From assembly GCA_016213105.1 (NCBI GenBank), contig JACRBN010000025.1:310001-374000 (forward strand): a stretch of 64,000 nucleotides of DNA, read 5' to 3'. The stretch is from Chloroflexota bacterium (GTDB lineage: Bacteria > Chloroflexota > Anaerolineae > Anaerolineales > Villigracilaceae). The position numbers were made by a program, and so were the translations under genes. Below the pieces are notes generated by a model, which searched no databases, was not told where the DNA came from, and saw nothing but the letters and a program-made list of their open reading frames with translations. Positions 39,366 to 57,864 of the stretch are shown here, piece after piece (the stretch's first letter is position 1; each line of letters starts with the position of its first letter).

Positions 39366-41789
39366 ATGACTCTAAACAATCGAAAATTCAACGGGACAAG
39401 AAGTCTCCTGTTCAAAATCAGATCGGCCGACTCCACTCCCATTCAACCAGAGGACACAAGCATGAACCTCACCAAAACAAAAAAAGCAGCGCATAAATTT
39501 GCGCTTATTATTTTATCTTTAAGCCTGTTATTAGCGTTCTTCCCAATTGACGGCAATGCAAATTTAGCACAGGCCCAGGGCGAGCGCAAACAAGTTCTGT
39601 ATATCAATTCATACCATCCGGGATATAAATTTTCAGATGATATTCAAAAAGGTATTACAACAGCATTCCTGGAACAAGGCAATATCACCCTGCGCGTTGA
39701 ATACCTGGACACTAAACGCCTTAACAGCCCGGAATACCTAGAAGAAATCAATCAACTTTTCAAACTTAAATACAAGGACGCCAATCTCGATCTGGTTATA
39801 TCGTCAGACGACGCGGCATTAAATTTCTTATTTCAAAATGCCGACACCTTGTTCCCGGATGTCCCTGTTGTTTTTGTCGGCGCGAACTACTTTGACGAAA
39901 CCAGGCTAAAAGGCTACGAGCGTTTTACAGGCATCAGCGAAGAAGCAGACATCCGTGGCACCATCGATCTTGCATTGGGACTTCATCCCACCGTACGCAA
40001 GATCGTTGTTGTCAATGACATATCTGTTACAGGGCAAAATATCCATCGGGCTTTTGATACCCTCATTCTAGAATATCCGCAGATCACTTTTGAGTTTCTC
40101 GAAGATGTGACGATGGATGAAATTCGTCAACGAATTGGAACCCTGCCACAGGACAGCCTGGTACTCCTCACAATCTTCTCCAAAGACAAAGCTGGATCAT
40201 TATTCGAATATGATCAATTTACTTCTTTGATCGCAGAGAGCAGTTCTGTCCCAGTCTATGGGACATGGGATTTCAGCCTGGGCTATGGCATCGTAGGCGG
40301 CAAATTAACCAGCGGTTATACAGAAGGGGAACGAGGGGCAAACCTGGCGCTCCGTATTCTTGCCGGGGAAGACCCCGCCAGTATTCCAGTTGACAAGCAG
40401 GTGAAAAGTCAGTATATGTTTGATTACAAGGTCATGGAGAAGTGGGGAGTTGAAGTATCCAGCCTGCCCAAAGACAGCATCGTCCTGGATCGCCCGGTCT
40501 CCTTCTACGAAGAGAACATGGGGGCAATCTGGGGTGTTCTGATCGGGTTCATTGTACTGTTCTCCATCATTGTATTCCTCGCCATCAACAACAACCAGCG
40601 CCGTATGGCACAAATCGATTTGGCAGCAAGCAACCGTGACTTAAAGGCTGTCCAGGGTTCTCTTGAGCAGCGTGTGGCTGAGCGCACCAAGGCGCTGACC
40701 ACCTCCACGGAAGTCAGCCGCCGCCTGTCCACCATCCTCGACCGGAAGCAGTTGGTTTCCGAGGTGGTGAATCAGGTCAGAAATGCCTTTGGTTACTATC
40801 ACACCCAAATTTATTTTTACGATGATGCCAGGCAAAATTTGGTCATGGCAGGCGGCACGGGCGAAGCCGGTGAAATGATGCTGGCGCAATTCCACAAGGT
40901 CGCCACGGGGCGCGGCCTGGTGGGACGCGCCGCCGAGACCAATGAACCTGTGCTGGTGTCGAATACGTTTCTAAGCCCGGAGTGGCTGCCCAACTCCCTG
41001 TTGCCTGAAACCAAATCTGAGCTGGCCATCCCGATCTCCATCGGCGACCAGGTGCTGGGCGTGCTGGATGTGCAGCATGACGTGATCGACGGCTTGCAGC
41101 GGGAGGATGTCGAGGCGCTCGTGTCGATTGCGAACCAGGTCGCGATTGCCGTGCAAAACGCCCAGTCGTACACGGAAATTCAACGCAGCCAGGCGCTTTT
41201 GTCCGAGGCGCTCAGGGCTGCACGCCTTGGAAACTGGGAATACGATTTTGAAAAAGACCTCTTCACCTTCACCGATGACTTTTATTCGATTTTCCGAACT
41301 ACCGTTGAAAAAGTAGGCGGATACAAGATATCCTCCGCTGACTACTCCAAAAATTTTGTCCACCCCGATGATGCGGCACTTGTGGGCATCGAGATTCAAA
41401 AAGTTCTTGAATCCAAAGAGCGTTTTTTCACTACGCGCCTGGAACACCGCATTATTTTTTCAGACGGCGAAATAGGTTACATTGCAGTGAACATCAATGT
41501 GGAACGCGACGAGAACGGAAAAATCACCCGCTGGTACGGCGCGAACCAGGATATTACCGAACGCCGCGCGTTGGAAGAAATTAATCGTAAACGCGCCAAC
41601 CAACAGGAAGCCATCAACTTGATTACCCAGAAGATACAGGGCACCACCAGCATCGAGTCGGCGCTGCAGATTGCTGTGCGCGAGTTGGGCCATGCCCTGG
41701 GTATGCGGGCTACCATGGTTGCGCTTGAACCAACCGTATCGGCCGGTGAACGCACACCGATTCATGCTGATGGAGTAGACCATGAATAG
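39366..41789 (+). CDS. Kinase-less sensor: ABC-substrate-binding-like domain, TM, GAF, PAS
   Basis: An 807-residue membrane sensor. A signal-anchor is followed by a periplasmic domain (about 75-370) of the ABC_sub_bind/TrpX type ([37 protein letters not shown]). A membrane helix lies near 385-407, then a coiled stretch ([11 protein letters not shown]), a GAF domain (about 445-600) and a PAS domain (about 612-738). The protein ends with the QKIQGTTS...RELGHALG module (about 747-790). No HisKA, ATPase, GGDEF or other output domain is present. The ATG at 39366 has AGGAG 9 bases upstream; the ATG at 39462 would give a more ordinary signal peptide and also has GAGG. It overlaps the next gene by 8 bases. 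Likely ligand: an amino acid or small organic solute, by family analogy only. Confidence 0.85.
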
Positions 41790-43713
41790 CTCATCCACCA
41801 CCAATTCCGCAAACCCCGTCAATTCACCGGAGAACCTGCATTTCGGTTTTTGGGGCAACCTGCCTCTCTCACGAAAAATCCTGCTGGCCTTTGGTGTGTT
41901 GTTTATCCTGACCGTGGTCATCGCCATTGTCACCTTGTGGGGCATGAATAGAACCACCATTGCCTACGAAGAAGCCCTGACGAAAGGCAATGAGATACGC
42001 AGAATATCCGATCTGTTGGCTATCGATCTTTTACAAGCCCGCCGCGCCGAGAAGAACTTCCTCCTGCGCTGGAAGGAGGAGGGCTTCGATACGGCGTACG
42101 CAAACTACATAACCACTGAAACAGAGGATGCCGCGTCCACGCGCGGGCCTGCCTATATTCAAAATATTACAGCCATTCGCGAAGATCTCAAGTTACTTGC
42201 CCCTTTCGGACCTGTGGCGGAGACGGTTTCAACGGGCGATATGACACGAACCCAATATGAAGCGGACATCGCCTCCCTGTCCCAAAATGTAGACACGTAC
42301 GATAAAAACTTTACCGCTCTCGTAGATACGCTCCGAAAAAAGGGCTACGATGAGAATACAGGTTTTGAAGGCGAGTTTCGAACTGCGGTTCGCGACATTG
42401 AAGCGAAAATCTCTGGTCAAGCCGGCTTGGAACAATTGGAGATCACCCTCCTCCAGATTCGCCGCAACGAAAAAGATTACCTGGCGCGTGGCGGCCAACA
42501 GTATGTCGATAATGTTCACACATTTATGGCCCAGTTGAAAACCCAGATTGCGGCAACTGACTTGCTTGAGCCTGCTGTGAAAACCGAATTACGCACTCAG
42601 GCAGATACCTATCTGGTAGCGTTCGACGCTCTGGTAGAGTTGGATAAAGAAATCGCCATTCACAATGAGGAATTGATCGCCGCCGCGCGCGCGGTGGAAC
42701 CGTTGGCGGCAAAACTGCAGAGCCTGGGCGAACAACTTGCCGTGGATAGCACCAATGAGGCGCGCGCCAACAACACGCGAACGTTTACGATTTCCATTAT
42801 CGTCATCCTCGTTGTCATGGCCATTTCCTTCGTTCTGGCAATTGCGCTGTCGCGGCAAATCACCCGCCCAGTCACATCGTTGACCAACACTGCCGAGCAG
42901 ATCGCTTCGGGCAACTTCGAGGTGCAGGCTGAGATGACATCCGCCGATGAAATCGGAACCCTTGCGCAGGCATTTAACTCCATGACAAGCCGCCTGCAGC
43001 AAGCCTTCAAGGAGGTCGCCGACCGCTCCAGAGACCTGGCAACGGTGGCGGAGATCAGCACAAGGACAACCACCATTCGGGACCCATACCAAATGCTGGC
43101 GACCATGGTACACCTGACCCAGCGCGGTTTCAACCTTTACCATGCGCACGTATTTACCTATCACAAGGATGAAGACAAACTGGAGATCGTAGCCTGCGGC
43201 TACAAGGAAGGCGACGAACACGAGGGTACGCATGGCACGGCAGTCATTCCATTACAGCAGGAACAATCGCTGGTGGCGCGCGCGGGGCGCACCAGAAAAT
43301 CCGTTATCGTCAACGATGTGCGCAGCGATCCGGGCTGGCTTCCCAACCCGCTTCTGCCGGATACACACGCGGAGCTGGCTGTGCCGATGATCGTGGGCGA
43401 TGAACTGGTGGGCGTGCTGGACGTGCAGGCGGATCACACGGATGCCTTCACGATGGAGGATGCCAATATCCAAATGACCCTCGCTTCGGAAATCGCCACC
43501 GCTTATCAAAACGCGCTTAGCTATGAGCGATCCAAAGAAGAGGCGGATCTGGAATCGCTGGTCAACACCATCGGCCAAAAAATCCAGCGCGCCACCACCC
43601 TGGAGGATACCCTGCAGACCGCCATCCGCGAACTTGGCTCGGCGCTTGGGGCCTCGCGTGTCAGCGCAAATATTCAGGCCGCCCGCGTTGACGATATTAC
43701 CGGTGAAAACTAA
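41782..43713 (+). CDS. Kinase-less sensor: HBM-like helical domain, HAMP, GAF
   Basis: A 643-residue membrane sensor. Helix 1 is near 33-55, and an outside helical domain (about 56-335) follows. It carries the paired motifs [15 protein letters not shown] and [15 protein letters not shown], as in helical bimodular (HBM) or related four-helix ligand-binding domains of chemoreceptors. Helix 2 is near 335-357, then HAMP ([20 protein letters not shown]), a GAF domain (about 425-580) with [17 protein letters not shown], and the C-terminal QKIQRATT...RELGSALG module (about 592-630). There is no kinase or methyl-accepting domain. It overlaps the previous gene by 8 bases, and its stop is 10 bases before the next ATG. 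Confidence 0.87.
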
Positions 43714-43723
43714 GGAGTTGAAG

Positions 43724-46700
43724 ATGAGCATCTCGAATGATTCACCGACCAAGGCAATGATCATGAATGAAAAAAGCTCCAGCGGAGCTGATCTCCCGGA
43801 AAAACGGGCAGCACAAAACGCAACCCTGGGATCAATCTTCCTGATCGTCTTTGGGCTGTTTTCCTCTGTGGGCGGTTTTTTGAAAGGCAACATCGTCTCC
43901 TGGCAGGATTACGTTCTGCTTGTCACACCCATCGTTGTATTTATACTTGGGTTGACCAGTCTTGTGCTGTTGCAGCGTGGAAAATCCCTCCAGGGCAGCA
44001 GCCTTGTTTTTATCACCAATTTGATGCTGCCGATCGTGGCAGTCCTGCTCCAAACAGGGCTGGGCTGGGCGGTTTTTGTTTACGCCCTGACCTCATCCAT
44101 TATGCTGATCTGGCGGGCAATGCCCAAAGCCACACGCAATTGGGCTTTCATCATTACCGCCCTGTCCCTGGCTTTGATCGTGGCTATGGAATGGTTCAGT
44201 CCATCCATACGAGTGGCCGCAGGCAATGAATTGTCCATCTTTTTCTATAGTGCAAGTGCAATTCTGGTGGCAATCTTTCTTGTTCAGTCCGCGCGTCAGG
44301 CCTGGGGCGGCAGTCTTCGCGCCAAATTATTGACCAGCTTCCTTTTATCTATCATCTTGGCGGTTGCGACTATCAGCCTCTTTTCATTCTACAGCGCCAA
44401 TCAATCCCAAACCTTTATGTTCGACCAGTTGGAAACCGCTGTGCGCACCCAGTCGAAGACACAACTTAGCAGCACAACACAGACCGAAACACAAAATGCT
44501 GAAGAGACATTTTCAGAAATTGTTGAGGAAGTTGGGAAACTGGCGGAGTACCAAGCGACGCTTTACACTCAGTCCCCCACTCTGGGACAGGGCACCTACT
44601 GGGATGCAAATACGCAGCTCACCATTCGGTCAGGTGGGCAGTATGGGAATTCGCAATCCGATCCTGCCTCGGTTGTCGTCCCTTCCACTGTCACCCTTGA
44701 TGAAGCGATGATCTCGGAAATAAATACCAATATTTATCTGAACTTTACCGTACCGACCATTTTAGCGTCCAACCCGGATATCGTCGCCATATATTCCATC
44801 AGCACAAGTGGCGTTAGTATCTATTACCCGAATATCAACCTGTCTGAAGTTACACCACCCGATTTTGACCCCCGCGCGCAATCTTTTTACAGGGTTGCCA
44901 CTCCTCAGAACAACCCGGAACGCAAAGTGGTCTGGACGGAACCTTATCAGGATCCGGCTGGACAAGGCTTGTTGGTAACAAGCGTAGCACCAGTCTATGA
45001 CCAGACAGGCAGGTTTAAAGGTGTGGTCGCAGCAGATGTTCGGCTGATAGATATTAGTAATGCCATCTCAGCAGTAAAAATTGGACAGAGTGGTTTTGCT
45101 TTTCTGATCGATCCAGCAGGGCATGTGATCGGTATGCCGGTGACGGGGTATAAATTATTCAACCTGTCTGCAGAACTCGTACCTTTTAACGAAAAACCAA
45201 AACAGACCATTTTGGGAATGGGCCCAATAGAACTACAGGCAGTGACACGTAAAATGACAACCGGCGAAACGGGTCTGGAAACGATTACCATCCAGGATGA
45301 AAAATTCTATGTTTCTTATGCTCCCTTGCCCAGCGTTGGATACAGCCTCGGTGTTGTGGCGCCAGTTGCTGAATTGGATGCGCCCTACCTGACAGCCCGT
45401 GACCAGGTCGAAAACGAAACACAAGATTCAAACCGTCTGTTCTTGATTATTCTGGTCTTTATCGTACTGGGAGCCATCGGGTCAAGTCTTTTATTCAGCC
45501 AATTCCTTTCGGGTCCGATCGTACGCCTTACCAAAGTTGCAGAACAAGTGACGGCGGGCGATTTGGGTGCGCAGGCAAAGGTTGAATCGGCCGATGAAAC
45601 TGGCGCATTGGCAAACGTCTTTAACCGTATGACCGCCCAATTACGTGAATTCATCGGCACGCTCGAATCCCGTGTGGCAGACCGTACCCGCAACCTCGAA
45701 CTCGCGGCTGAAGTCGGGCGCACCGTGTCGCAGGTGCGCGCCCTCGACATCATGTTAACCGACGCCGCGGAACTCATCCGCAAACAATTCGACCTGTATT
45801 ACGTGCAGGTGTACCTGACCGACCCCAGGCGGGAAAACCTCAACCTGCAGGCAGGCACAGGGCAGGTGGGTAAACAATTACTGGAGCGCAGTCACCGCCT
45901 GCCATTCAACGCCGACTCCATTAATGGTCGCGCCGCTGTTGGCAAAAAATCGGTGGTCATCTCTGATACGACAGCCAGCGCCACCTTCAAGCCCAATCCG
46001 CTCCTGCCAAACACGCGCTCTGAAATGGCCGTGCCGCTTCTCATCGGTGAAAAGGTGGTGGGTGTGCTGGACATGCAAAGCGAACGCCCTGGCGCACTCA
46101 GCCAGGAAATCCTCCCCGCCTTCGAGGCTCTGGCTGGTCAGATGGCCATCGCCATTCAGAACGCAAGCCTGCTGGCCGAGGCGGAGGAAGCCCGCAGGGA
46201 AGTGGAGGCGCAGGCGCGCAGGCTTTCCCGTTCGAACTGGGCGGAATACCTGGATGCCATCCACAAGCCCGAGGAGAGCGGGTTTATCTTTGAACAGAAT
46301 AAAATCGCCCCGCTGGCCCAGGCAGATGAACCCTCGGCGGAGGGCGCCCTGGTCGCCCCCATTACAGTGACCGGAGAGATGCTTGGAAACCTGGTGGTGG
46401 AAATGGAAGGACGGTCGTCCATCGCACGGGCGGAGGAATTGGTCAACACGGTCGCGCGCCAGGTGGCGCAGCAGATCGAAAACCTGCGCCTGCTGGATAG
46501 CGCCGAACGCTACCGCGCCGAAGCGGAACAGGCCTCCCGCCGCCTGACCCACGAGGGCTGGCAGGACTACCTGGACCAAAAGTCGGTCAACGGCCTGGGG
46601 TATGTGTATGACTTGAAGGAAGTCCGCCCCTGCAGCGCAGAGGAAGTCGGGCGGGTACAGGATGCGTCCTTCAGCCTGCCGCTTAAGGTCCGCGATGAAA

Positions 46701-47104
46701 CGGTTGGCAAACTCTCCATCCAGGGCCTTGGAAGCGGCGACGAAGAGGCTGCCGGCCTTGCCGCGGCCGTTGCCGAACGCCTTGGCGCGCACATCGAAGG
46801 CTTGCGTCTCTCCTTGCAGACGGAACAGGCCCTGGCGACCACCCAAAAGCAGGCCCGGCGCGAACAGGCCCTGCGTCAGATTACCAGCGCCGTGCGCGGC
46901 TCCACCGACCCGGCCGTCATCCTGCGAACTGCCGCGCGCGAGTTGGGGAACATTCTGGGAAGGCAGACCGTTGTCCGCCTGGCAACTGCCAAGGAAACAC
47001 AAACCAATCAGGCAGATCGTCCTGCTGATATTGCTGGAGAGGCCGTCGCAAACGAATCAGTCTCACCTGCGGAATCGCCAAAAGCAGATGGAGGTAACGA
47101 ATGA
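43724..47104 (+). CDS. Kinase-less sensor: membrane domain, dCache-like domain, HAMP, GAF
   Basis: An 1126-residue protein. Residues about 35-200 hold five or six membrane helices, and another helix follows near 205-228. A large outside domain (about 245-560) with FLIDPAGHVIGMPV and a YYPNINLSEV stretch resembles dCache_1. Then come a helix (LFLIILVFIVLGAIGSSLLF), HAMP (GPIVRLTKVAEQVTAGDLG) and GAF (about 665-805). Two partial-GAF modules with SRSNWAEYL and THEGWQDYL follow (about 820-1045), then the C-terminal module (RQITSAVRGSTD...RELGNILG). No kinase domain. AAGGAG lies 7 bases before the ATG; the stop overlaps the next ATG by 4 bases. The membrane and outside portions are AT-richer than the cytoplasmic portion. 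Confidence 0.86.
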   Translation: MSISNDSPTKAMIMNEKSSSGADLPEKRAAQNATLGSIFLIVFGLFSSVGGFLKGNIVSWQDYVLLVTPIVVFILGLTSLVLLQRGKSLQGSSLVFITNLMLPIVAVLLQTGLGWAVFVYALTSSIMLIWRAMPKATRNWAFIITALSLALIVAMEWFSPSIRVAAGNELSIFFYSASAILVAIFLVQSARQAWGGSLRAKLLTSFLLSIILAVATISLFSFYSANQSQTFMFDQLETAVRTQSKTQLSSTTQTETQNAEETFSEIVEEVGKLAEYQATLYTQSPTLGQGTYWDANTQLTIRSGGQYGNSQSDPASVVVPSTVTLDEAMISEINTNIYLNFTVPTILASNPDIVAIYSISTSGVSIYYPNINLSEVTPPDFDPRAQSFYRVATPQNNPERKVVWTEPYQDPAGQGLLVTSVAPVYDQTGRFKGVVAADVRLIDISNAISAVKIGQSGFAFLIDPAGHVIGMPVTGYKLFNLSAELVPFNEKPKQTILGMGPIELQAVTRKMTTGETGLETITIQDEKFYVSYAPLPSVGYSLGVVAPVAELDAPYLTARDQVENETQDSNRLFLIILVFIVLGAIGSSLLFSQFLSGPIVRLTKVAEQVTAGDLGAQAKVESADETGALANVFNRMTAQLREFIGTLESRVADRTRNLELAAEVGRTVSQVRALDIMLTDAAELIRKQFDLYYVQVYLTDPRRENLNLQAGTGQVGKQLLERSHRLPFNADSINGRAAVGKKSVVISDTTASATFKPNPLLPNTRSEMAVPLLIGEKVVGVLDMQSERPGALSQEILPAFEALAGQMAIAIQNASLLAEAEEARREVEAQARRLSRSNWAEYLDAIHKPEESGFIFEQNKIAPLAQADEPSAEGALVAPITVTGEMLGNLVVEMEGRSSIARAEELVNTVARQVAQQIENLRLLDSAERYRAEAEQASRRLTHEGWQDYLDQKSVNGLGYVYDLKEVRPCSAEEVGRVQDASFSLPLKVRDETVGKLSIQGLGSGDEEAAGLAAAVAERLGAHIEGLRLSLQTEQALATTQKQARREQALRQITSAVRGSTDPAVILRTAARELGNILGRQTVVRLATAKETQTNQADRPADIAGEAVANESVSPAESPKADGGNE

Positions 47105-50100
47105 ACACTTCAAGAAACAATAACCTAACGGGCAACGACCAGAAGCAAAATGACCTGGTTATGCAAACCAGTTTGCAATTGCTCCCGTTGATCATGAACA
47201 ACATTCCCCAGGCTGTATTTTGGAAGGATCGTAACCTGGTCTATTTGGGGTGTAACAAGGCTTTTGCAGACGATGCCGGTTTCTCCTCTCCGGAAGATGT
47301 TGTTGGCAAAACCGATTTCGATATGCCCTGGAAGGCTCAAGCTGAACTGTATCGCGCGGACGACAGTCTGGTCATGGAAAAAGGCGAGCCCAAGATCAAT
47401 TACGAAGAGCCCCAGACCACACCTGACGGTTCCACCATCTGGCTAAGCACCAGCAAGATCCCGGTCCGTGAGAATGGTCAGGTTGTTGCCGTATTGGGAA
47501 TGTACGAAGACGTCACCGCCCGCAAACAGGTGGAAAAGGAACTCCTGCTTCGTGACCGCGCTCTGGCTTCCTCCCTCAATGCAGTGGTCATCCTTAACCT
47601 ACAGGATAGCAAGCCCATCTATGTCAATGATGCCATCCTCAAAATGACCGGCTACACCCGCGAGGAAGTCATGCGGGTCGGATTGTCGGACATCACCGGC
47701 AATCCGGCAGCGCCCAAGGAAATTCGCGCAGCCATCCAAACTCAAGGTTTCTTCGTTGGCGAGGAACTCATCCAGCGTAAGGACGGCTCTGTTTTTCCCG
47801 CAAACTTCTTCAGTTCTTTGATCACTGACGACAAAGGACAACCCATTGCCGTACAATCCACCTTCTTCGATATCACCGAACACAGACAGGCACAGGAAGC
47901 GGTCAGGCAAAGTCAAGCACGCTTCCAGGGGCTGGTGGAAACACTGGGTGAGTGGGTTTGGGAAGTGGACAGCCAAGGAACCTATACCTACATCAGCCCG
48001 AACATCAAAAAGCTATTGGGATACGAACCGGAAGAAGTATTGGGCAAGACGCCATTTGACCTGATGCCTCCCGAAGAGGCCCAACGCGTAGCAGGTGTGT
48101 TTGGCCCTCTGCTCTCAACCCAGCAACCGCTGGTGGGGCTGGAAAACATAAACCGCCACAAAGACGGTCGCCTGGTTGTTTTGGAGACCAACGGTGTTCC
48201 CTTCTTCGATGCCAATGGACAACTCGAGGGTTATCGCGGCACGGACCGCGATATTACTGAGCGCAAACGGGCAGAGGATAAACTTAAACAGAACGTCAAC
48301 TTCACCAGCGCGCTGCTGGATGCAGTTCCAACGCCTGTTTTCTACAAGGATAACAAGGGAATATACCAGGGTTGCAATCGCTCATTCACCGATATTATGG
48401 GCGTGACGTCAGAAGAAATTAAGGGTAAGACAGTCCACCAACTCTGGCCCAGTGAAAATGCGGAAATATATCACCAGAAAGACATGGATCTGATGCGTAA
48501 AGTGGAACATCAGGTGTATGAAGCTACAATAAAAGACAAGGATGGAATTATCCGCCCTGTGATCTTTGCCAAGGATGTTTTCTATGACGAAAGCGGCAAT
48601 GTGGCTGGTTTGGTCGGCGCTTTTCTCGACATCACCGAGCGAAAATATACAGAGCAGGCACTGCGCGAAAATCAACAACTTTTGCAGTTGGTGATGGACA
48701 ATATTCCCCAGTCTGTTTTCTGGAAGGATAAGAATTTGACCTATCTGGGCGTGAATCAGGCTTTCGCCGAAGACGCCGGTTTTACTTCGCCTCAGGAAAT
48801 TGTGGGCAGGAATGATTTCGACATGCCTTGGAAGGAACAAGCCGAACTCTACCGCGCCGATGATCAACGGGTGCTGGAAGGTGGGGAACCGAAACTCAAT
48901 TATGAAGAACCACAGACTGGTCCCGCCGGACAAGTAACCTGGTTGCGCACCAGCAAGATTCCCATGCGAGAGGCTAATGGGAATATATTTGCGGTACTGG
49001 GAATGTATGAAGATATTACCGAACGCAAGAAGGTGGAGGAGCAGATTCGCATTTTCCAAGCGATGGCCGAAGCTTCTACCGATGCGATCTTTATGGCCGA
49101 TCCGAACACCACCGAACTGCTTTACGCGAACGCGGCAGCGCTCCAGGTTTACCAGATGCCGGAGATGGTCGGCACCCTGGGTGTCAAGCTTTGGCCGGAA
49201 GAAAATGTGCCCTACCTCCAGCAGGTCGCGCTTCCCCAAATTTTGGATACAGGATGGAAAGGCGAGGCGCCACAAGTACGCGGGAACGGCAGTGTATTCG
49301 ATACGGATGTCACGGCTTTTGCGCTCCGCGACGCCACGGACACTCCCACACACCTGGTAGTGATGGTCCGCGATGTCACCGAACGCAAACGATTGGAGCG
49401 CGAAGTACAGGAAGCCTTCGAACGTCGCGGTTATCAGGTACAGGTCAGTACCGAAGTTTCGCAGGAAATTGCTGCGGCAACTGAAACAAATGAACTCTTC
49501 GATCGCGTCGTCAACCTTACCAAGGAACGTTTTGGTTATTACCACACACAATTATTACGCTATGACCCCGCACAGGACGCCGTGGTGCTGATCAACGGTT
49601 ATGGCGCAACAGGTCGGAAGATGCTTGCTGCCGGTCACAAGATGGTCATGGGTGAAGGCCTAATTGGTACCGCCGCCGCCACAGGTGAGACCGTGATGCG
49701 CCCCACGCTGGCAGATGACCCCGACTGGCTGCCCAATCCCCTCCTGCCCGAGACCAAAGGTGAGATCGCAGTGCCGATCAAATGGCAGGACACCGTGTTG
49801 GGTGTGCTCGATGTGCAAAGCGACCAGGCTGGGGCTCTCACCGAAGACGACCGCCTGCTGCTGGAAGGCCTGTGCGGACAAATCGCCATCGCCATACGCA
49901 GCACCGAACTGCTGGAGACCATCCGCCAGAATGAAACCCGCCTGGCCGAAGCTGCTACCATTGCCCAATTGGGTTATTGGGAATTTGATGCGCTGACTGA
50001 TATGTACACCTTCACCGACCAATTTTACGCCCTGCTGCGTACCACTGCAGAACGGGAAGGTGGCTACCAAATGTCATCCAGGGAATATGCCCGGAGATTT

Positions 50101-52143
50101 ATGCATCCCGATGACAGGCATTTGGTGAACAGCGAAATCCAGAAATCGATCGAAACCACCGACACCGACCACATCGAAAAATTTGAAAATCGGTTTATTC
50201 GAGCCGACGGCAGTGAAGGTTACGTCACCGGGCGTTCCCGAGTGGTGAAGGATGCCGAGGGCCGAACAGTAAAAACGGTTGGATTTAACCAGGATATTAC
50301 CGAACGCAAGCAGGCGGAAGCGGCGTTACAGCGCTCCGAACAGTTGATGCGCACAGTGATTGATTCGACCCCCGACTGGATTTTCATCAAAGACCAGGAC
50401 CATCGTTATCAGTTAGCCAACAAAGGCTATGCAGATGCCCTGCACATCGCTTCTGAAAACTTTATTGGCAAGAACGATCTTGATTTAGGGTTTCCCGAAG
50501 AGTTGGTTAAAGGCAACCCGGAAAAAGGTATTCGCGGCTTCTGGACTGATGACCGTCTGGTAATGGATAAAAATGAAACGCAAATCTATCCTGACGATCC
50601 CGCCACAATCGATGGCGTGGTTCATAATTTTCATACCATCAAAATCCCTCTGCAGAATCCTGACGGGAAGGTCTGGGGTGTCCTTGCCTTTGCCCGCGAC
50701 ATCACCGAACGCAAACAAGCCGAAGCCCGCCTGGCGGAGGCGCTCAGAACTGCCCGTCTTGCCAACTGGGAATATGATGTCGAGAAAGACCTGTTCACGT
50801 TCAATGATCAGTTCTATGCCATCTTCCACGCCACTGCCGAACAGGCGGGTGGATACCAAATCTCGTCCGCCCGATATGCAGAGTTGTTCGTGCATCCCGA
50901 AGATGTTCATCTCGTGGGCGCGGAGATCGGAAAGGCGCTGAGCTCAACAGAAAGGATGTATACCGTCGCCCTCGACCATCGCATCCTGTATGCGGACGGC
51001 GGCGTCGGTTTCATCACGGTCAAGGTGACGGTCGAACGGGATGAGAATGGAAAAATCACCCGCTTCTACGGTGCCAACCAGGATATTACCGAGCGCAAGG
51101 CGGCAGAGGAAGCCCTCCGCCGCAGCCAGCAGGAAATGGCGGATCGCCTCGAAGAGATCAACCGCCTGTACCAGGCCATGAGCCGTGAAGGTTGGAAGAC
51201 GTATCGTCAAACGAAAAACCTGCCCACAGGCTTCATGTTCGACCGCAACGGCATCCAGCCGGCGGATCCTGCCTGGGCGGTGGAAGGTTTCACTCACATC
51301 CCCATGAAGGTGCTGGGCGGGGAAGTGGTTGGAAACCTGGCCGTCGCCGACGACCCCGAGCGCCCCATCAGCAAGGATGACCTCGACTTCCTCCAGCAGG
51401 TCTCGGAGCAGGTGGCCCTGGCGCTGGAAGGCGCGCGCCTCTCGGCCCAAACCCAATCCGCGCTGGCGCAAACCGAGAAATTGTCTGAAGCCGGCTTGCA
51501 ATTTACGCGGGCATCGGATTTGCAGGAACTGGTGAAAATCGCGGCCGAAGCGCTGGACATCCCCTCGGTCAATCGCGCCGCCCTGGAGACCTTCACCTAC
51601 AACGCGGAGAACGAAGTGGTCGGCATGGACGTCATCGCCAACTGGTGGAGCGGAACAGGACACCAGCCAACGGCCGTTGGAACACACTACACCGCCGAGA
51701 TCCTGCCCCTCCTCAAGTTGTTCCTTACTTCCAGCCCCAATTTCATCCAGGATGCATTTACTGATGAACGTGTGGATGAAATATCCATGCAGATCATCAA
51801 GATGCTGAACGTCCGCGCCGTGGCGGTGCTGCCGCTCTTCCTGGCCGACAGGCAGCTGGGCGTTCTGTTATTAGAGGCAGAACAGCCCCACAACTTCACC
51901 CAGGATGAGGTTCGTCTATTCACCGCCATGGGCCCGCAGATATCCACTGTGTTGGAAAACCGCCGCCAGTTCGAACGCGCGCAGAAACAGGCCGAACGCG
52001 AAAGCACCCTGAACGTCATCAGCCAGAAGATCCAAAGCGCCACCACCGTGGAGGCCGTGCTCCAAATAGCCGCGCGTGAATTGGGACACGCCCTGGGCGC
52101 TCCCATGACCATCGCCCAACTAAGCATGAAAGATAAGAAATAG
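47101..52143 (+). CDS. Kinase-less soluble sensor with nine PAS and two GAF-like domains
   Basis: A 1680-residue soluble protein. Six PAS domains fill about 20-765, then GAF (about 770-930), three more PAS (about 940-1330), a partial-GAF module with SREGWKTYRQ (about 1335-1460), a second GAF-like domain (about 1465-1620) and the C-terminal QKIQSATT...RELGHALG module (about 1630-1672). PAS boundaries are marked by recurrent DITERK. PAS1 and PAS5 are near copies (NNIPQAVFWKDRNLVYLG and DNIPQSVFWKDKNLTYLG). PAS9 closely matches the PAS of the sensor at 39366. No output domain is present. It starts at an ATGA overlap with the previous gene. It probably integrates cytoplasmic signals (redox, small ligands), which cannot be specified. 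Confidence 0.88.
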   Translation: MNTSRNNNLTGNDQKQNDLVMQTSLQLLPLIMNNIPQAVFWKDRNLVYLGCNKAFADDAGFSSPEDVVGKTDFDMPWKAQAELYRADDSLVMEKGEPKINYEEPQTTPDGSTIWLSTSKIPVRENGQVVAVLGMYEDVTARKQVEKELLLRDRALASSLNAVVILNLQDSKPIYVNDAILKMTGYTREEVMRVGLSDITGNPAAPKEIRAAIQTQGFFVGEELIQRKDGSVFPANFFSSLITDDKGQPIAVQSTFFDITEHRQAQEAVRQSQARFQGLVETLGEWVWEVDSQGTYTYISPNIKKLLGYEPEEVLGKTPFDLMPPEEAQRVAGVFGPLLSTQQPLVGLENINRHKDGRLVVLETNGVPFFDANGQLEGYRGTDRDITERKRAEDKLKQNVNFTSALLDAVPTPVFYKDNKGIYQGCNRSFTDIMGVTSEEIKGKTVHQLWPSENAEIYHQKDMDLMRKVEHQVYEATIKDKDGIIRPVIFAKDVFYDESGNVAGLVGAFLDITERKYTEQALRENQQLLQLVMDNIPQSVFWKDKNLTYLGVNQAFAEDAGFTSPQEIVGRNDFDMPWKEQAELYRADDQRVLEGGEPKLNYEEPQTGPAGQVTWLRTSKIPMREANGNIFAVLGMYEDITERKKVEEQIRIFQAMAEASTDAIFMADPNTTELLYANAAALQVYQMPEMVGTLGVKLWPEENVPYLQQVALPQILDTGWKGEAPQVRGNGSVFDTDVTAFALRDATDTPTHLVVMVRDVTERKRLEREVQEAFERRGYQVQVSTEVSQEIAAATETNELFDRVVNLTKERFGYYHTQLLRYDPAQDAVVLINGYGATGRKMLAAGHKMVMGEGLIGTAAATGETVMRPTLADDPDWLPNPLLPETKGEIAVPIKWQDTVLGVLDVQSDQAGALTEDDRLLLEGLCGQIAIAIRSTELLETIRQNETRLAEAATIAQLGYWEFDALTDMYTFTDQFYALLRTTAEREGGYQMSSREYARRFMHPDDRHLVNSEIQKSIETTDTDHIEKFENRFIRADGSEGYVTGRSRVVKDAEGRTVKTVGFNQDITERKQAEAALQRSEQLMRTVIDSTPDWIFIKDQDHRYQLANKGYADALHIASENFIGKNDLDLGFPEELVKGNPEKGIRGFWTDDRLVMDKNETQIYPDDPATIDGVVHNFHTIKIPLQNPDGKVWGVLAFARDITERKQAEARLAEALRTARLANWEYDVEKDLFTFNDQFYAIFHATAEQAGGYQISSARYAELFVHPEDVHLVGAEIGKALSSTERMYTVALDHRILYADGGVGFITVKVTVERDENGKITRFYGANQDITERKAAEEALRRSQQEMADRLEEINRLYQAMSREGWKTYRQTKNLPTGFMFDRNGIQPADPAWAVEGFTHIPMKVLGGEVVGNLAVADDPERPISKDDLDFLQQVSEQVALALEGARLSAQTQSALAQTEKLSEAGLQFTRASDLQELVKIAAEALDIPSVNRAALETFTYNAENEVVGMDVIANWWSGTGHQPTAVGTHYTAEILPLLKLFLTSSPNFIQDAFTDERVDEISMQIIKMLNVRAVAVLPLFLADRQLGVLLLEAEQPHNFTQDEVRLFTAMGPQISTVLENRRQFERAQKQAERESTLNVISQKIQSATTVEAVLQIAARELGHALGAPMTIAQLSMKDKK

Positions 52144-52170: not shown

Positions 52171-54591
52171 ATGCCACCCGATGAATCACAAAAACGGGTT
52201 GAAAAACTCTTTTCCGAACTGGAGCGAATCGCCAGGCAGCCGCTCTCAGCGCAGGAGGGCGCGTCTGCGGACCTGCCCACGGGGAACGACTCCATGCTCC
52301 TCGGCGAGATCGAGGCGTTGAATGCGCGCCTCTGCGCCCTGGAAGCGCAGCTCAGGGAAACCGAGGAACGTGCCGCGGCGGCCGAGGCCGAACTCGCCGC
52401 TCGCGTGCAGGATAAAAATCCGCTTCCCGGACAGAACATCGTGTATGAAAAGGAAGAGGTCGGTTTTGCCTATCACGATGACCGTCTGCTTCCGTTCCAA
52501 TTGGGCAATATCCAGTCCGAAAACCTGGACAGTCTCATCGAAACCCCGTTGACGGCGGGCGGCCAAAAGATCGGCGGTCTGAAGGTCAAGCCCGCTTCGG
52601 AACGCGAATGGACCGCGGATGAGGAGGCGCTTGCGCAGGCCGTTGCCCGTCAGGTCTCGCTGCAGGTTCAGAACCTGCGCCTGCTGAACGCAACCGAGCG
52701 TGCGCGCGCCGAGGCGCAGGCCGCCACCCGCCGTTTCACGCATGAAAGCTGGCAGGAATTCCTGGACGGCATCCACAACAGCGAGCGCATCGGTTATGCC
52801 TACAACCAGGCCGAGGTCGCGCCCATGGACGGAACGCAGGCCGATGGGCACGATCTGCGCGAAACCATCGACGTGCTCGACGAGCAGGTCGGCGACATTC
52901 TCCTGAAGACCGATCCTGCGCGTCCGTTGACCGAGGAAGATAAAACGCTGGTCTCGACCGTGGCGCGCCAGGTCGCGCAACAGGTGGAAAGCCTGCGCCT
53001 GCTGGCCGAAGCCTCCCGCGCTCGCGCCGACGCGGAGGAGGCCACCCGCCGCCTGAGCCGCGAAAGCTGGCAGACCTATGCACAGCGCGCGCAATCGACG
53101 CTTGGCTATGTGTATGATTCAAACCGGGTCAGTCCGCTCGAAGGGACTTCCAGCCTGGGCAGCGTCAGTTTTGTCCAGCCGCTCACCGTGCGCGGCGAAA
53201 CCATCGGGCGGCTTGCCATGCTGGATGTGGAACACGTCACGCCCGAGGCGGCCGAACTGGCCGGGGCGATTGCCGAACGCGTCAGCGCCCAACTGGAGCG
53301 GCTGCGCCTCACCGAGGAAATCGAAAGGCGCGCGGCCGAACTCGCGACCGTGGCCACCGTCTCCACAACGGCATCGACTGTGCTCGACCCTGACGAGCTA
53401 CTGCAACAGGTGGTGAACCTGACCCGGGAGAGCTTCAATCTGTACCACGTTCACATCTACCTGGCGGACGATTCCTGGCAGACCCTTCTGCTCGCCGCCG
53501 GCGCGGGGGAGATCGGGCAGCAGATGGTCGCTTCAGGCCATGCCATCCCGATGGACGCGGAACGCTCCCTGGTGGCGCGCGCTTTGCGCGAACGCACGGC
53601 CCTGATCGTGAACGACGTGCGCACGGAGCCTGATTTCCTGCCCAATCCGTTCCTGCCCGAGACCCGCGCGGAGCTGGCCGTGCCGATGCTATCCGGCGAA
53701 AAGGCCATCGGCGTGTTCGACGTGCAATCGGAAGTCATCGGCCGTTTCACCGACGAGGACGCCAAAATCTATTCCACCCTGGCCGCCCAGGTCGCCATTG
53801 CCCTGCAAAACGCCCGCCTGTACATGGAGCAATCCGCGACGGTGACCCAACTGCGCGAACTGGACCGCCTGAAATCCTCCTTCCTCGCCAACATGTCGCA
53901 TGAACTGCGCACGCCGCTCAACTCCATCCTGGGTTTCTCGGATGTGATGCTCGAAGAGTTGGACGGGCCGCTGACCGCGAACATGGACAACGACCTGCGC
54001 CTGATCCGCAAGAATGGCCAGCACCTGCTGCACCTGATCAACGACGTGCTCGACATGGCCAAGATCGAATCCGGGCGCATGAACCTGAACCTCGAAAAAT
54101 TCAGGGTGCATGAGACCCTCGAAGAAGTCACCAGCATCACGTCCACGCTGGCGAGTGAAAAGAATCTGGCCCTGTTCATCGAAGACAGTTCCGACCAGGA
54201 GGTCGAGATCCTGGCCGACCGCACCCGCATCCGCCAGGTGATGATCAACCTCGTGAACAACGCCATCAAATTCACCGAAACCGGTAAAATATCGATCCAG
54301 GCCAAACGCAAAGAGGATCTTGTGCTGATCTCCGTCCGCGATACCGGCATCGGCATCCCGCCAGACAAGCTGGAGGCGGTCTTCCAGGAGTTCACGCAGG
54401 TCGACACCTCCACCACGCGCAAAGCGGGCGGCACCGGCCTGGGTCTGCCTATCAGCCGCCGCCTCGTGGAAATGCACGGCGGCCGCCTGTGGGCCGAAAG
54501 CAGCGGCATCGACGGCGAAGGCTGCATCTTCTACGTGGAACTTCCGCTGGAAGCCCGCACAGACGAATCCATCGAAAAGACGGAACGATAA
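52171..54591 (+). CDS. Soluble histidine kinase, sole kinase of the sensor operon
   Basis: An 806-residue cytoplasmic kinase without membrane helices. An N-terminal coiled coil (about 40-85) is followed by three partial-GAF modules (about 90-395) with THESWQEFL and SRESWQTYA, as in the neighbouring sensors, then a full GAF (about 405-555; LPNPFLPETRAELAVP). HisKA has FLANMSHELRTPLNSILGF (His577); the ATPase domain has MINLVNNAIKFT, DTGIGIPPDKL and GTGLGLPISRRL. All catalytic motifs are intact. It is the only kinase in the eight-gene run and shares coiled and GAF architecture with the four kinase-less sensors, suggesting association. Its TAA shares one base with the ATG of the enzyme-receiver fusion (TAATG), a strong sign of coupled translation. 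Confidence 0.92.
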   Translation: MPPDESQKRVEKLFSELERIARQPLSAQEGASADLPTGNDSMLLGEIEALNARLCALEAQLRETEERAAAAEAELAARVQDKNPLPGQNIVYEKEEVGFAYHDDRLLPFQLGNIQSENLDSLIETPLTAGGQKIGGLKVKPASEREWTADEEALAQAVARQVSLQVQNLRLLNATERARAEAQAATRRFTHESWQEFLDGIHNSERIGYAYNQAEVAPMDGTQADGHDLRETIDVLDEQVGDILLKTDPARPLTEEDKTLVSTVARQVAQQVESLRLLAEASRARADAEEATRRLSRESWQTYAQRAQSTLGYVYDSNRVSPLEGTSSLGSVSFVQPLTVRGETIGRLAMLDVEHVTPEAAELAGAIAERVSAQLERLRLTEEIERRAAELATVATVSTTASTVLDPDELLQQVVNLTRESFNLYHVHIYLADDSWQTLLLAAGAGEIGQQMVASGHAIPMDAERSLVARALRERTALIVNDVRTEPDFLPNPFLPETRAELAVPMLSGEKAIGVFDVQSEVIGRFTDEDAKIYSTLAAQVAIALQNARLYMEQSATVTQLRELDRLKSSFLANMSHELRTPLNSILGFSDVMLEELDGPLTANMDNDLRLIRKNGQHLLHLINDVLDMAKIESGRMNLNLEKFRVHETLEEVTSITSTLASEKNLALFIEDSSDQEVEILADRTRIRQVMINLVNNAIKFTETGKISIQAKRKEDLVLISVRDTGIGIPPDKLEAVFQEFTQVDTSTTRKAGGTGLGLPISRRLVEMHGGRLWAESSGIDGEGCIFYVELPLEARTDESIEKTER

Positions 54592-56234
54592 TGGCCATCC
54601 CCCTGCATCTCGAATGTAACAGCTGCGGCGCGCAGCAGCCCTACGAACCCTTCGTCCCGCCGCTGTGCGCGAAGTGCGGATCGCAATGGATGGAAGCCCG
54701 CTACGATTACGCCGCCTTCAAACGCGAGATCCTGCGCGGGCTGCCCGGCCGCCCTGCCAACATGTGGCGCTATGCGGATGTCCTGCCGCTGCGGGATCCC
54801 ACCTCCCTGGATCTGTACCCCGCAGGCGGGACGCCGCTCTGGCTGTCCCAGCGCTACGCACCCGCCCTCGGGCATGACTCCGTTTACATCAAGGACGAAC
54901 GCTACGGGCCGACCAGTTCCTTCAAGGACAGGCAGGCTGCCGGCGCCGTGGCCGCCATGCTCGAAGGCGGCATCCGCGAGGCGGTCATCGCCTCCACGGG
55001 CAATGCCGCGGTGGCCTACGCCGCCGCCTGTGCCCGCGCGGGCATCAAGCTGTGGGTCTTCATGACCAGCCTCGTCCCCCAGGAGAAATTGCGCGAGGCG
55101 GCCCTCTTCGGCGCGGAGGTCATCCGCGTCAGCGGCAACTACGACCAGACCAAGCAGATCGCGGCCCAGTTCGCCCAGCGCAAACATCTGTGGCTCGACC
55201 GCGGCTCCAACTCCATCCCCGCGCGCGAATCGATGAAGGTCATCGCCTACGAGATCGTCGAACAGCTCGGCTGGCGCGCGCCCGATTGGTACATCCAATC
55301 CGTCAGCGGCGGACTGGGGCCGCTGGGCGTCTATCAGGGCTTCGCCGAACTCCAGCGCATGGGACTGATCGAGCGCATCCCCAAGCTGGCGGTCATCCAG
55401 GCCGAGGGTTGCTCGCCGATGGTGCAGGCCTTCAAGGCCGGGAAGGATGTCGCCGACGCGGTCATCCCCGACACACGCATCATCATTCTGTCCACCGGTG
55501 ACCCCGGGAAGACGTATACTTATCTGTGGAAGCTCACCCAGCAATACGGCGGCACCATGGAAGCGGTGACGGATGCCGAGGCCTTTGCCGCCATGCGCGC
55601 GCTGGCCAAGAGCGAGGGCATGGCCGTGGAACCGGCCACCGCCGTGGCCTTCGCCGGCCTGGAGAAGATGCTGCGCAATGGGACGATCTCGAAGAATGAA
55701 CTGGTGGTCGTCAACTGCACCGGGCACACCTTCCCGGTCGAGAAGCACGTGCTCGAAGACCAGTTCGCCGTGGACGTGCATTTGAGCGAGACCCAGGCGC
55801 CCGCGCCGCGCGAAGGCCTGCAAGCCGCGCTCGAAAACCTGGACGAGAAGACCACCACCGTCCTGTTGATCGACGACAACCCCGATGATGCCCTGCTCAT
55901 CCGCCGCCTGCTGGAGGGCAAGAAATCCTACCGCGTCCTGCACGCCAAGGACGGCTGGGAGGGTCTCTCGATGGCGCGGCAAAGCCTGCCCGACCTGATC
56001 GTCAGCGACCTGACCATGCCCGGCATCGATGGCTTCGGCCTGGTCGAGGAACTCAAACTCGACCCGCGCACGAAGGACATCCCCGTGGTGGTGGTCAGCG
56101 CCAAGGACATCACCCCCGAGGAGCGCAAGCGCCTGAACGGCTACGTCGAGGCGTTATATCAAAAAGGTTCATTGCCCACACGGAAATTTGTCGACCAGGT
56201 CATCCAGACCATTGAAGATAAAAATGGCGTATAA
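54591..56234 (+). CDS. Threonine-synthase-like PLP enzyme fused to a receiver domain
   Basis: A 547-residue fusion. Residues 1-400 are a fold-type II PLP enzyme of the threonine synthase group: an N-terminal zinc ribbon (Cys9, Cys12, Cys26, Cys29), the PLP-lysine motif TSSFKDRQ (Lys112), STGNAAVAYAAACARAG, SVSGGLGPLGVYQG and VVVNCTGHTF. After a 20-residue linker, residues about 422-547 form a complete CheY-like receiver: Asp428/Asp429, phospho-acceptor Asp473 (VSDLTMPGIDG), Ser503 and Lys525. The frame is continuous and the linker is plain, so this is a real fusion and not a missed stop. The gene starts at the last base of the kinase stop codon. Phosphorylation by that kinase is the obvious hypothesis. 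Whether the enzyme makes threonine from O-phosphohomoserine or acts on another substrate is open. Confidence 0.93.
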   Translation: MAIPLHLECNSCGAQQPYEPFVPPLCAKCGSQWMEARYDYAAFKREILRGLPGRPANMWRYADVLPLRDPTSLDLYPAGGTPLWLSQRYAPALGHDSVYIKDERYGPTSSFKDRQAAGAVAAMLEGGIREAVIASTGNAAVAYAAACARAGIKLWVFMTSLVPQEKLREAALFGAEVIRVSGNYDQTKQIAAQFAQRKHLWLDRGSNSIPARESMKVIAYEIVEQLGWRAPDWYIQSVSGGLGPLGVYQGFAELQRMGLIERIPKLAVIQAEGCSPMVQAFKAGKDVADAVIPDTRIIILSTGDPGKTYTYLWKLTQQYGGTMEAVTDAEAFAAMRALAKSEGMAVEPATAVAFAGLEKMLRNGTISKNELVVVNCTGHTFPVEKHVLEDQFAVDVHLSETQAPAPREGLQAALENLDEKTTTVLLIDDNPDDALLIRRLLEGKKSYRVLHAKDGWEGLSMARQSLPDLIVSDLTMPGIDGFGLVEELKLDPRTKDIPVVVVSAKDITPEERKRLNGYVEALYQKGSLPTRKFVDQVIQTIEDKNGV

Positions 56235-56245
56235 GGAGTTCACTC

Positions 56246-56644
56246 ATGGGAAGTAATGTTTTATACATCGAAGATAATCCCGATAACATGGTGCTGGTGA
56301 AGCGTGCCCTGGAAGCGCGTGGTTACACCCTGCTCGAAGCCGTCAATGGCCTGAGCGGAGTGACCATGGCTGAAACCAGGGAGATCGACCTGGTCCTGCT
56401 GGATATCAACCTGCCCGACATCGACGGCTACGAGGTGGCCCGCCGCATCCGCAACAGCGGCAAATCCAGGCTGACCTACATGCCGATCATCGCCATCACC
56501 GCCAACGCCCTGAAAGGCGACGCGGAAAAGGCCCTGGCCGCCGGCTGCGACGTGTACATGTCCAAGCCGATCAACATCCGCGAATTGTGGGCGCGTGTCG
56601 AGGCCTTTGTGCCTTCGCCGAATGCCCCGGAAAATTCGGTATGA
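56246..56644 (+). CDS. Stand-alone receiver-domain response regulator
   Basis: A 132-residue single receiver domain. It has LYIEDNPDN (acidic pair Glu9/Asp10), LLDINLPDIDGYE with phospho-acceptor Asp53, IIAITANA (Thr) and YMSKPINI (Lys). It resembles DivK/CheY-type regulators that act through protein contacts and not DNA. AAGGAG lies 7-8 bases before the ATG, 11 bases after the fusion gene. Its stop overlaps the ATG of the second threonine synthase (ATGA), so receiver and enzyme are probably made in step. Confidence 0.93.
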   Translation: MGSNVLYIEDNPDNMVLVKRALEARGYTLLEAVNGLSGVTMAETREIDLVLLDINLPDIDGYEVARRIRNSGKSRLTYMPIIAITANALKGDAEKALAAGCDVYMSKPINIRELWARVEAFVPSPNAPENSV

Positions 56645-57864
56645 TCGCCAAACCGCAAGATTCCCTGCCCGCTTCTGTCATATCCACACAGGCGATCTCC
56701 TACCTGACCCATCTCGAATGTGCGGATTGCGGGGCGCAGTATTCCGCTTCGGAGGTTCACACCTTCTGTCCCGATTGCCAGGCGCCGCTGCTGGTGAAAT
56801 ATGACCTGGAAGCCGCCGCGCGAAACGTCGACCGCGAACGCATCCACAAACGTCTCAAGGGCATGTGGCGCTGGCATGAACTGCTGCCCGTGCTGGACCC
56901 GCAAAACATGGTGACGCTTGGCGAAGGGGACACGGCCCTGTTGAAACTGCCCCGCGTGGGCGAAATGCTCGGCCTGACCCAGCTTTATACAAAGGATGAA
57001 AGCAGCAACCCGACCGGTTCCTTCAAGGCGCGCGGACTCTCCGCGGCCGTCTCCAAGGCAAAGGAACTGGGCATCCAAAAGGTCATCATTCCCACCGCGG
57101 GCAATGCGGGCGGAGCCATGGCGGCCTATGCGGCGCGCGCCGGCATGCAGGCGCTCATCTACATGCCCAGGGATACGCCCACGGCCAACATCCAGGAAAG
57201 CCGCATCGCGGGCGCCGAAGTGGTGCTGGTGGATGGCCTGATCAGCGACGCAGCCGGCATGGCGGGCCTCAAGGCGCGCGAGGAAGGCTGGTTCGATGTC
57301 TCGACCTTCAAGGAGCCCTACCGCATGGAGGGCAAGAAGGTCATGGGCTACGAACTGGCCGAATCCTTCGAGTGGGAACTGCCCGATGTCATCGTCTATC
57401 CCACCGGCGGCGGCACGGGCCTGGTCGGAATGTGGAAGGCTTTCGATGAATTGGAGCGGATGGGCTGGCTGAAGAATACCAAGCGTCCGCGCATGGTCTC
57501 CGTCCAGGCCGAGGGCTGCGCCCCGGTGGTCAAGGCCTTTTTGACGGGCGCTGATTTTTGCGATTTCTGGCTGGGCGCGCACACCGTGGCCTCGGGCCTG
57601 CGCGTGCCCAAGAGCTTCGCCGACCGCCTGATCCTCTCCGCCATTCGCGAGAGCCAGGGCACGGCCGTGGCGGTCAGCGACGAAGCCCTGCTGGATTATC
57701 AAAAGAAGCTGGCCGCGCTCGAAGGCATCTTCGCCGCCCCCGAAGGTGCCGCCACCCTGGCCGCCGTGCATACGCTCGTCGAACAAAAATGGATCCACCC
57801 CGACGAGCGCGTCGTCATCTTCAACACAGGCTCGGGGTTGAAATATCTCGACTACACGGGATAG
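56641..57864 (+). CDS. thrC: Threonine synthase
   Basis: A 407-residue PLP enzyme. The zinc ribbon is Cys27, Cys30, Cys43, Cys46. The PLP lysine is Lys129 in NPTGSFKARGLS, followed by PTAGNAGGAMAAYAARAG, VYPTGGGTGLVGMWKAF and IFNTGSGLKYLD. This matches threonine synthases of the SFKARG type and is the more canonical of the two copies here. It should convert O-phosphohomoserine to threonine. It shares little more than fold with the copy at 54591, so the two are paralogues and not a recent duplication. It overlaps the receiver gene by 4 bases and ends the operon at a strong terminator. Other threonine-pathway genes (hom, thrB) are absent from the window. Confidence 0.9.
   Translation: MIAKPQDSLPASVISTQAISYLTHLECADCGAQYSASEVHTFCPDCQAPLLVKYDLEAAARNVDRERIHKRLKGMWRWHELLPVLDPQNMVTLGEGDTALLKLPRVGEMLGLTQLYTKDESSNPTGSFKARGLSAAVSKAKELGIQKVIIPTAGNAGGAMAAYAARAGMQALIYMPRDTPTANIQESRIAGAEVVLVDGLISDAAGMAGLKAREEGWFDVSTFKEPYRMEGKKVMGYELAESFEWELPDVIVYPTGGGTGLVGMWKAFDELERMGWLKNTKRPRMVSVQAEGCAPVVKAFLTGADFCDFWLGAHTVASGLRVPKSFADRLILSAIRESQGTAVAVSDEALLDYQKKLAALEGIFAAPEGAATLAAVHTLVEQKWIHPDERVVIFNTGSGLKYLDYTG

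Follow-up and report, generated by a model that had tools for sequence, protein, structure and literature searches.

A truncated GAF start at the C-termini of kinase-less sensors in Anaerolineae and its possible role in joining many sensors to one kinase

In a stretch of 64,000 nucleotides from a Chloroflexota bacterium (assembly GCA_016213105.1, contig JACRBN010000025.1, positions 310,001 to 374,000 of the forward strand; here called the window), an operon encodes four sensor proteins, S1 to S4, followed by a histidine kinase and a threonine synthase with a fused receiver domain. An earlier note on this DNA remarked that the four sensors end in a similar stretch resembling the first helix and strand of a GAF domain, cut off there. 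Why should proteins that otherwise differ all end in the same piece of a domain? We found that this is a real and recurrent feature of a large conserved signalling locus. Judged from its sequence, the shared module is a truncated GAF start, descended from an ordinary one and now a separate form. It may dock kinase-less sensors to one shared kinase, a reading to which we give about an even chance.

A profile of the module located it in all four sensors with scores of 68–80 bits, and none of the four has a Pfam kinase domain at an E-value of 0.1; the earlier note was correct on both points. S1 (39366..41789, on the forward strand, as are the other sensors, the modules, the kinase, the synthase fusion and the stand-alone receiver) joins an ABC substrate-binding-like domain, a GAF domain and a PAS domain to the module (41586..41738, 74.9 bits). 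S2 (41782..43713) has HAMP and GAF domains ahead of it (43537..43686, 72.6 bits), S3 (43724..47104) has dCache, HAMP, GAF and two short GAF domains (module at 46844..46996, 68.1 bits), and S4 (47101..52143) has several PAS and GAF domains (module at 51982..52134, 79.6 bits). Domains were assigned with Pfam, and in S3 also with a GAF profile. S3 starts near 43724, its open frame itself opening at 43523. Since S1 runs into the start codon of S2, and S3 into that of S4, the sensor stops look like real gene ends within an operon.

The module is about 45 residues long and consists of the first two GAF helices and the first strand, after which the protein stops. It aligns in register with positions 1–41 of the 157 in the GAF profile, and only 16, 8, 35 and 2 residues separate the profile match from the stop in S1, S2, S3 and S4, respectively. 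The middle strands, pocket and C-terminal helix of a complete GAF fold have no counterpart in the module, as the window proteins stop 2–35 residues after the match. The earlier description as a truncated GAF start was borne out, although the match covers two helices and a strand rather than one of each. No match to the Pfam GAF models was obtained for the module in S1 and S2.

When a profile built from 12 copies was run against the 5.39 Mb genome, 12 strong matches (68–80 bits) were returned, the next best scoring 21 bits. Four of these lie in the window, the number originally counted, but the genome holds eight more, all in a second operon on another contig, and all 12 are C-terminal. At the DNA level, the pattern RE-L-G, seven bases, L-G occurs four times in the window against 0.06 expected, and none of 100 shuffles reached four. 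Each of the two module operons includes a kinase and a threonine synthase-receiver fusion; in the second the order is sensors, ParA-like ATPase, hybrid kinase and fusion.

The same truncation is found in many other genomes. In the 28 gene clusters first read, each with 2–12 module sensors, 171 copies scoring above 30 bits end 0–52 residues before the stop (median 9), with never two in one gene. All 121 copies in 38 further regions, taken from distant families and from second loci of relatives, are C-terminal as well. When these clusters and regions are combined with 80 named loci, 439 unique copies of at least 25 bits are C-terminal and six are internal, so the prediction that matches would always be C-terminal is right with few exceptions; matches under 25 or 30 bits, as stated for each count, were left out. 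Five of the six internal copies score 25.7–30.6 bits and end 177–181 residues before the stop, and in the two that were inspected (G008 and G003) the copy opens the last full GAF domain. The sixth belongs to a natural fusion of two sensor ends (L099:3477-6722), in which module, linker, GAF body and a further module follow one another in one chain. Sixteen weak matches were inspected singly; eight are C-terminal and eight are ordinary GAF starts with the full domain following. Because the weak matches include ordinary GAF starts, the module is a truncated GAF derivative.

The module is present in 49 of 61 genomes consisting of its own and 60 relatives (E at most 1e-4), and in 98 of a sample of 298 genomes of the class Anaerolineae (1e-8). 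A draw from the whole phylum gave matches in 34 of 301 genomes, seven of them outside the class (1e-6). None of the matches in the six outside-class genomes inspected more closely is C-terminal; five are ordinary internal GAF starts and that of L213 is likewise internal. Ordinary full GAF domains that open with a sequence recognised by the profile were seen in L201–L204, L212 and L213 outside the class and in L214 and L215 inside it, and these are possibly near the ancestor of the truncated form.

Chance or a frameshift was ruled out as the cause of truncation, as hundreds of copies in many genomes stop at the same place. The genome search ruled out a generic GAF start picked by eye for the strong matches, and the earlier note's own counter-possibility, an ordinary start followed by a full domain in most proteins, likewise fails for these; it is true of the eight weak matches described above. 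A more subtle alternative is that an ancestral gene was truncated within a GAF domain and its end, which would have no function, was spread by duplication. The sensors of one operon do resemble duplicated genes, and the module shares ancestry with ordinary GAF starts. However, its conservation is roughly equal to that of the domain before it and does not extend to the residues immediately behind it, and the same end is carried by PAS, GAF and short-GAF proteins. Over some 460 copies, moreover, a glutamate is kept at 93% together with a face-specific pattern described below. With the module also present in those 98 class genomes, we regard a functionless relic as very improbable.

What partner might such an end have? 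A histidine kinase adjoins the module sensors in every cluster read far enough, as expected from the proposal that the module stands beside a kinase; clusters that break off at the last sensor or shortly behind it were counted neither for nor against. The further proposal, that the kinase would always be of the same type, did not hold throughout, as two clusters have HisKA_2 kinases in place of HisKA. These are the distant G129 and G259, which gave no match to the kinase probe and were candidates for a module without a kinase until Pfam showed a HisKA_2 kinase as the next gene in each. These two HisKA_2 kinases lie behind the module sensors at L196:14755-17754 and L199:3-1334, so the module is not tied to a single kinase class. 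Ahead of the sensors in L158 lie ParA and a fragment of a kinase, and no kinase was seen in about 6 kb behind these sensors.

The commonest cluster order is sensors, ParA-like ATPase, kinase and threonine synthase-receiver fusion. Of the 28 clusters, 25 have ParA; in the three that lack it, the window among them, the synthase genes are closely related (74–85% identical to that of the window), and we class these three as a ParA-less sister type. The receiver fusion is found in 80 of 80 named loci, which were fetched by means of the fused synthase, so that its presence there is by construction and that of the other neighbours is not. Sixty-seven of these loci reach a ParA gene; a module gene lies directly before ParA in 66 of the 67, and the kinase lies between ParA and the synthase in 66 of 67. 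Thirteen loci lack ParA; 12 of them start less than 6 kb ahead of the enzyme, and L134 is the exception. In distant families three clusters (L158, L159 and L176) showed a ParA gene, and 12 have none between sensors and kinase. From this arrangement a biosynthetic enzyme, threonine synthase, is apparently wired to two-component signalling.

The near-invariant position of a module gene directly before ParA could mean that the module is a handle for this ATPase, or for another cell component, and not for the kinase. Window-type operons and most distant clusters read are without ParA and yet keep the module, and the peptide resembling ParA activators sits on the kinase. We consider this the most improbable of the explanations discussed here.

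The start of the kinase suggests a more specific partner. Kinases of ParA-type operons begin with a conserved basic peptide around KRLDxLF, then a proline-rich unconserved linker, then a GAF body corresponding to the last two strands and last helix of the domain. A pattern search found the KRLDxLF-type motif in 61 of 66 kinases adjoining ParA; four of the five misses are close variants and one is a shortened frame. In a sample of 82 complete, unique kinases (start-cut kinases and repeats from the same genome left out), no part of the profile before position 90 (of 157) is covered by the first GAF match in 74 of the 79 outside the window type. The five exceptions have a longer partial match (L123, L139 and G049) or a full one (L134 and G025). 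That of G025 is accounted for, as the gene after ParA has a KRLDxLF-type start and ends in a module, with a separate kinase behind it. Among the three window-type kinases the first GAF match is partial in two, but a hairpin-like stretch precedes it.

The window kinase itself (52171..54591) consists of an N-terminal RVEKLF peptide, a coiled-coil-like stretch, short GAF domains, a full GAF domain, HisKA and HATPase, as assigned with Pfam. Its first short GAF (52435..52689) matches positions 97–156 of the profile only and has its own hairpin-like stretch ahead of the match. The peptide (QKRVEKLF, 52171..52230) is the counterpart of KRLDxLF in ParA-type kinases and is retained in the absence of ParA from the window operon; one ParA, encoded in the second operon, might serve both operons of the genome.

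If module and kinase body were two parts of one domain, their strands should bear traces of it. We compared up to 460 unique modules with about 890 full GAF domains, assigning the sides of the strand from GAF structures. In strand 1 of the module the two positions facing the helices are hydrophobic in fractions of 0.95 and 0.93, against 0.99 and 0.94 in full GAFs, whereas those facing the pocket are hydrophobic in 0.19 and 0.00, against 0.76 and 0.84. The first strand of the kinase bodies alternates strictly, with fractions of 1.0, 0.81 and 1.0 on one set of positions versus 0, 0 and 0 on the other, in 70 unique bodies (82 bodies gave 74 unique ones, of which four cut or window-type bodies were removed). 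In the sheet of a GAF domain, strand 1 lies next to the last strand. The pattern fits what would be expected of two complementary pieces of a GAF domain without a pocket.

Predicted structures point the same way. For the natural fusion in L099, AlphaFold gave a model of head and body with a predicted template modelling score of 0.71 and a predicted local distance difference test score of about 90 in both parts, in which the linker is disordered and strand 1 is formed. Head and body can, according to this model, form one GAF-like fold. Among the matches listed from the PDB, the alignments span both parts with Z scores of 11.6–14.9; most are named as GAF domains, phytochrome chromophore modules or phosphodiesterases, and the top ones (DosP) are given without a named domain. 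The C-terminus of S3 modelled alone is a long helix, with 53 residues running continuously into helix 1, and strand 1 is absent or unpaired, so that in this native setting only the helices of the module are predicted. The comparison of the two models is not a clean one, as the fusion alignment contained 30 full GAF rows and the S3 alignment none. A structure search with the S3 model gave no clear match (best Z 4.8).

The module might instead fold back and complete the preceding short GAF of its own sensor, giving a circularly permuted domain. In three ParA-type clusters examined, most sensors do carry the module directly behind a short GAF. In S1, however, it is preceded by a PAS domain and in S2 by a full GAF, and strand 1 is unpaired in the S3 prediction; closure within the sensor is in our judgement improbable. 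The strand pattern, the two predicted folds and a specificity for operon type favour a partner in another molecule.

This specificity was seen in a set of 369 modules (334 unique) from which those of distant families were left out. For all 32 window-type modules, the nearest neighbour in another genome is also of window type, and in a sample of ParA-type modules it was of the same type in 60 of 60, where the neighbour may share the genome under another locus name. Permutation within genomes indicated that modules of one operon resemble each other more than they do those of the other operon (p 0.0025–0.012) in all six genomes with at least three window-type modules, and gave p of about 0.2 in two genomes with a single one.

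Likeness within an operon is also what would be expected if the sensors assembled with each other, helix N and helix 1 extending a coiled coil into mixed dimers or arrays which the kinase joins through other GAF or coiled-coil parts. The single predicted helix of 53 residues that runs into helix 1 of S3, the presence of 2–12 module sensors in each of the 28 clusters and the many distant kinases that lack a headless body agree with such an assembly. It leaves unexplained why strand 1 is retained with one hydrophobic face, and why ParA-type kinases begin with just the GAF piece that the module lacks. We consider this explanation fairly unlikely.

For a docking of sensors to the kinase, we put the split-GAF form, with the head on the sensor and the body on the kinase, at somewhat below one half, and several observations weigh against it. 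Specificity for operon type may be due in part to descent. In 282 pairs from 72 operons, covariation between paired modules and kinase bodies correlated with the covariation within full GAFs at 0.031, a value as high as which was obtained with 6 of 60 shuffled pairings. The model of head and body was made in one chain, from an alignment whose full GAF rows favoured a GAF fold. Of the 22 ParA-less clusters that include a kinase, 13 have no headless GAF body at the kinase start, yet their sensors keep the module; 12 of the 13 belong to other families of the class, and the remaining one, L185, to the same genus. The L176 kinase is without such a body although ParA is present. The kinases of G129 and G259 are of another type. 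Finally, the window operon itself is without ParA, and its kinase keeps a hairpin-like stretch in the first short GAF. Since a headless body is missing from many kinases and the window kinase has this hairpin, the plug is better supported than this particular socket.

In the mechanism we propose, the module would be a detached GAF head (helix N, helix 1 and strand 1) serving as a C-terminal plug, which on otherwise different kinase-less sensors would let several of them feed one kinase. In ParA-type operons the socket would most likely be the headless GAF body near the kinase N-terminus, which retains the final hairpin and helix. The sensor would contribute strand 1 to the sheet of this body while its helices continued as a coiled coil into the kinase, and movement of the sensor could in this way be passed to the phosphorylation domain. 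The kinase would then act on receivers, including that of the threonine synthase fusion, and its basic N-terminal peptide would activate the ParA-like ATPase, which would position the assembly. The ParA-less operon of the window would use the same plug, but the contact must differ in part, because the first short GAF of its kinase already has a hairpin-like stretch. As a whole, an Anaerolineae machine in which up to a dozen interchangeable sensors plug into one ParA-positioned kinase and switch threonine synthase through its receiver seems to us possible rather than probable.

Among known systems, GAF domains (PF01590, PF13185) are the closest in structure; the module aligns with their N-terminal helix-helix-strand and the model of head and body matches GAF-containing structures, but the module has only helix N, helix 1 and strand 1 and no ligand pocket. 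Chemoreceptor arrays (MCP-CheW-CheA), and in R. sphaeroides above all the cytoplasmic one that includes TlpT and PpfA, a ParA-like protein, couple many receptors to one kinase. They resemble the proposed system in this and in a ParA-like ATPase whose partner has a basic N-terminus. Here, in contrast, the kinase is an ordinary HisKA kinase, the putative connector is a piece of a GAF domain and a biosynthetic enzyme would be among the outputs; no Pfam match to the MCP signalling domain was found in the four window sensors or in eight sensors scanned from the second operon. Two-component systems that use separate auxiliary sensors share the HisKA-HATPase kinase and the receiver domains, but differ from this one in lacking a truncated-domain connector common to many sensors and threonine synthase as a receiver-linked output.

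ParA/MinD activators such as ParB/Spo0J, PomX and McdB are like the ParA-type kinases, which open with a basic peptide and a loose proline-rich linker. In a published account (PMC7993993), such activators have a basic N-terminal peptide, a loose Pro/Ala-rich region and then an interaction domain; TlpT and McdB are both mentioned there as having a basic N-terminus, and the R. sphaeroides cluster is described as having a ParA-like ATPase, PpfA, with a partner of this kind. Unlike in those proteins, the peptide is here grafted onto a histidine kinase, and its activating role is putative.

No account of this system was found among the open-licence papers listed in literature searches. If the proposal is true, it would add to chemoreceptor arrays a further way for many receptors to share one kinase, through a connector simple enough for further sensors to be fitted with it. 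An enzyme of amino-acid biosynthesis would, in addition, be tied directly to two-component signalling, and histidine kinases would join the proteins positioned by ParA. For direct binding tests, the conserved termini offer small constructs.

The window operon continues behind the kinase with the threonine synthase and its fused C-terminal receiver (54591..56234; PF00291 and PF00072) and a stand-alone receiver domain (56246..56644, Pfam). The synthase scores 168.8 bits against TIGR00260 and passes its curated cut-off of 167.1; it is under the cut-offs of the five further threonine synthase models compared. Directly behind the operon lies a second threonine synthase-like gene without a receiver (56587-57864), and similarly placed genes occur in L180, L184, L186 and G018. 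In the second operon the synthase-receiver fusion is at L011:5144-6811. The ParA-like ATPase (L011:340-1131) directly precedes the kinase (L011:1067-5128), whose first residues resemble a ParB/PomX-type activating peptide, and an EamA-type transporter (L011:6854-7888) directly follows the fusion. In most ParA-type clusters, open reading frames of about 313–350 residues occupy the position after the synthase-receiver gene. Among the sensors of the second operon there is also a 324-residue lipoprotein-like protein, probably a substrate-binding protein (L010:9109-10083), and open reading frames of similar length were seen in several other clusters. The L080 record is titled Blastopirellula marina; its synthase is 78% identical, and it is probably a mislabelled metagenome-assembled genome of Chloroflexota.
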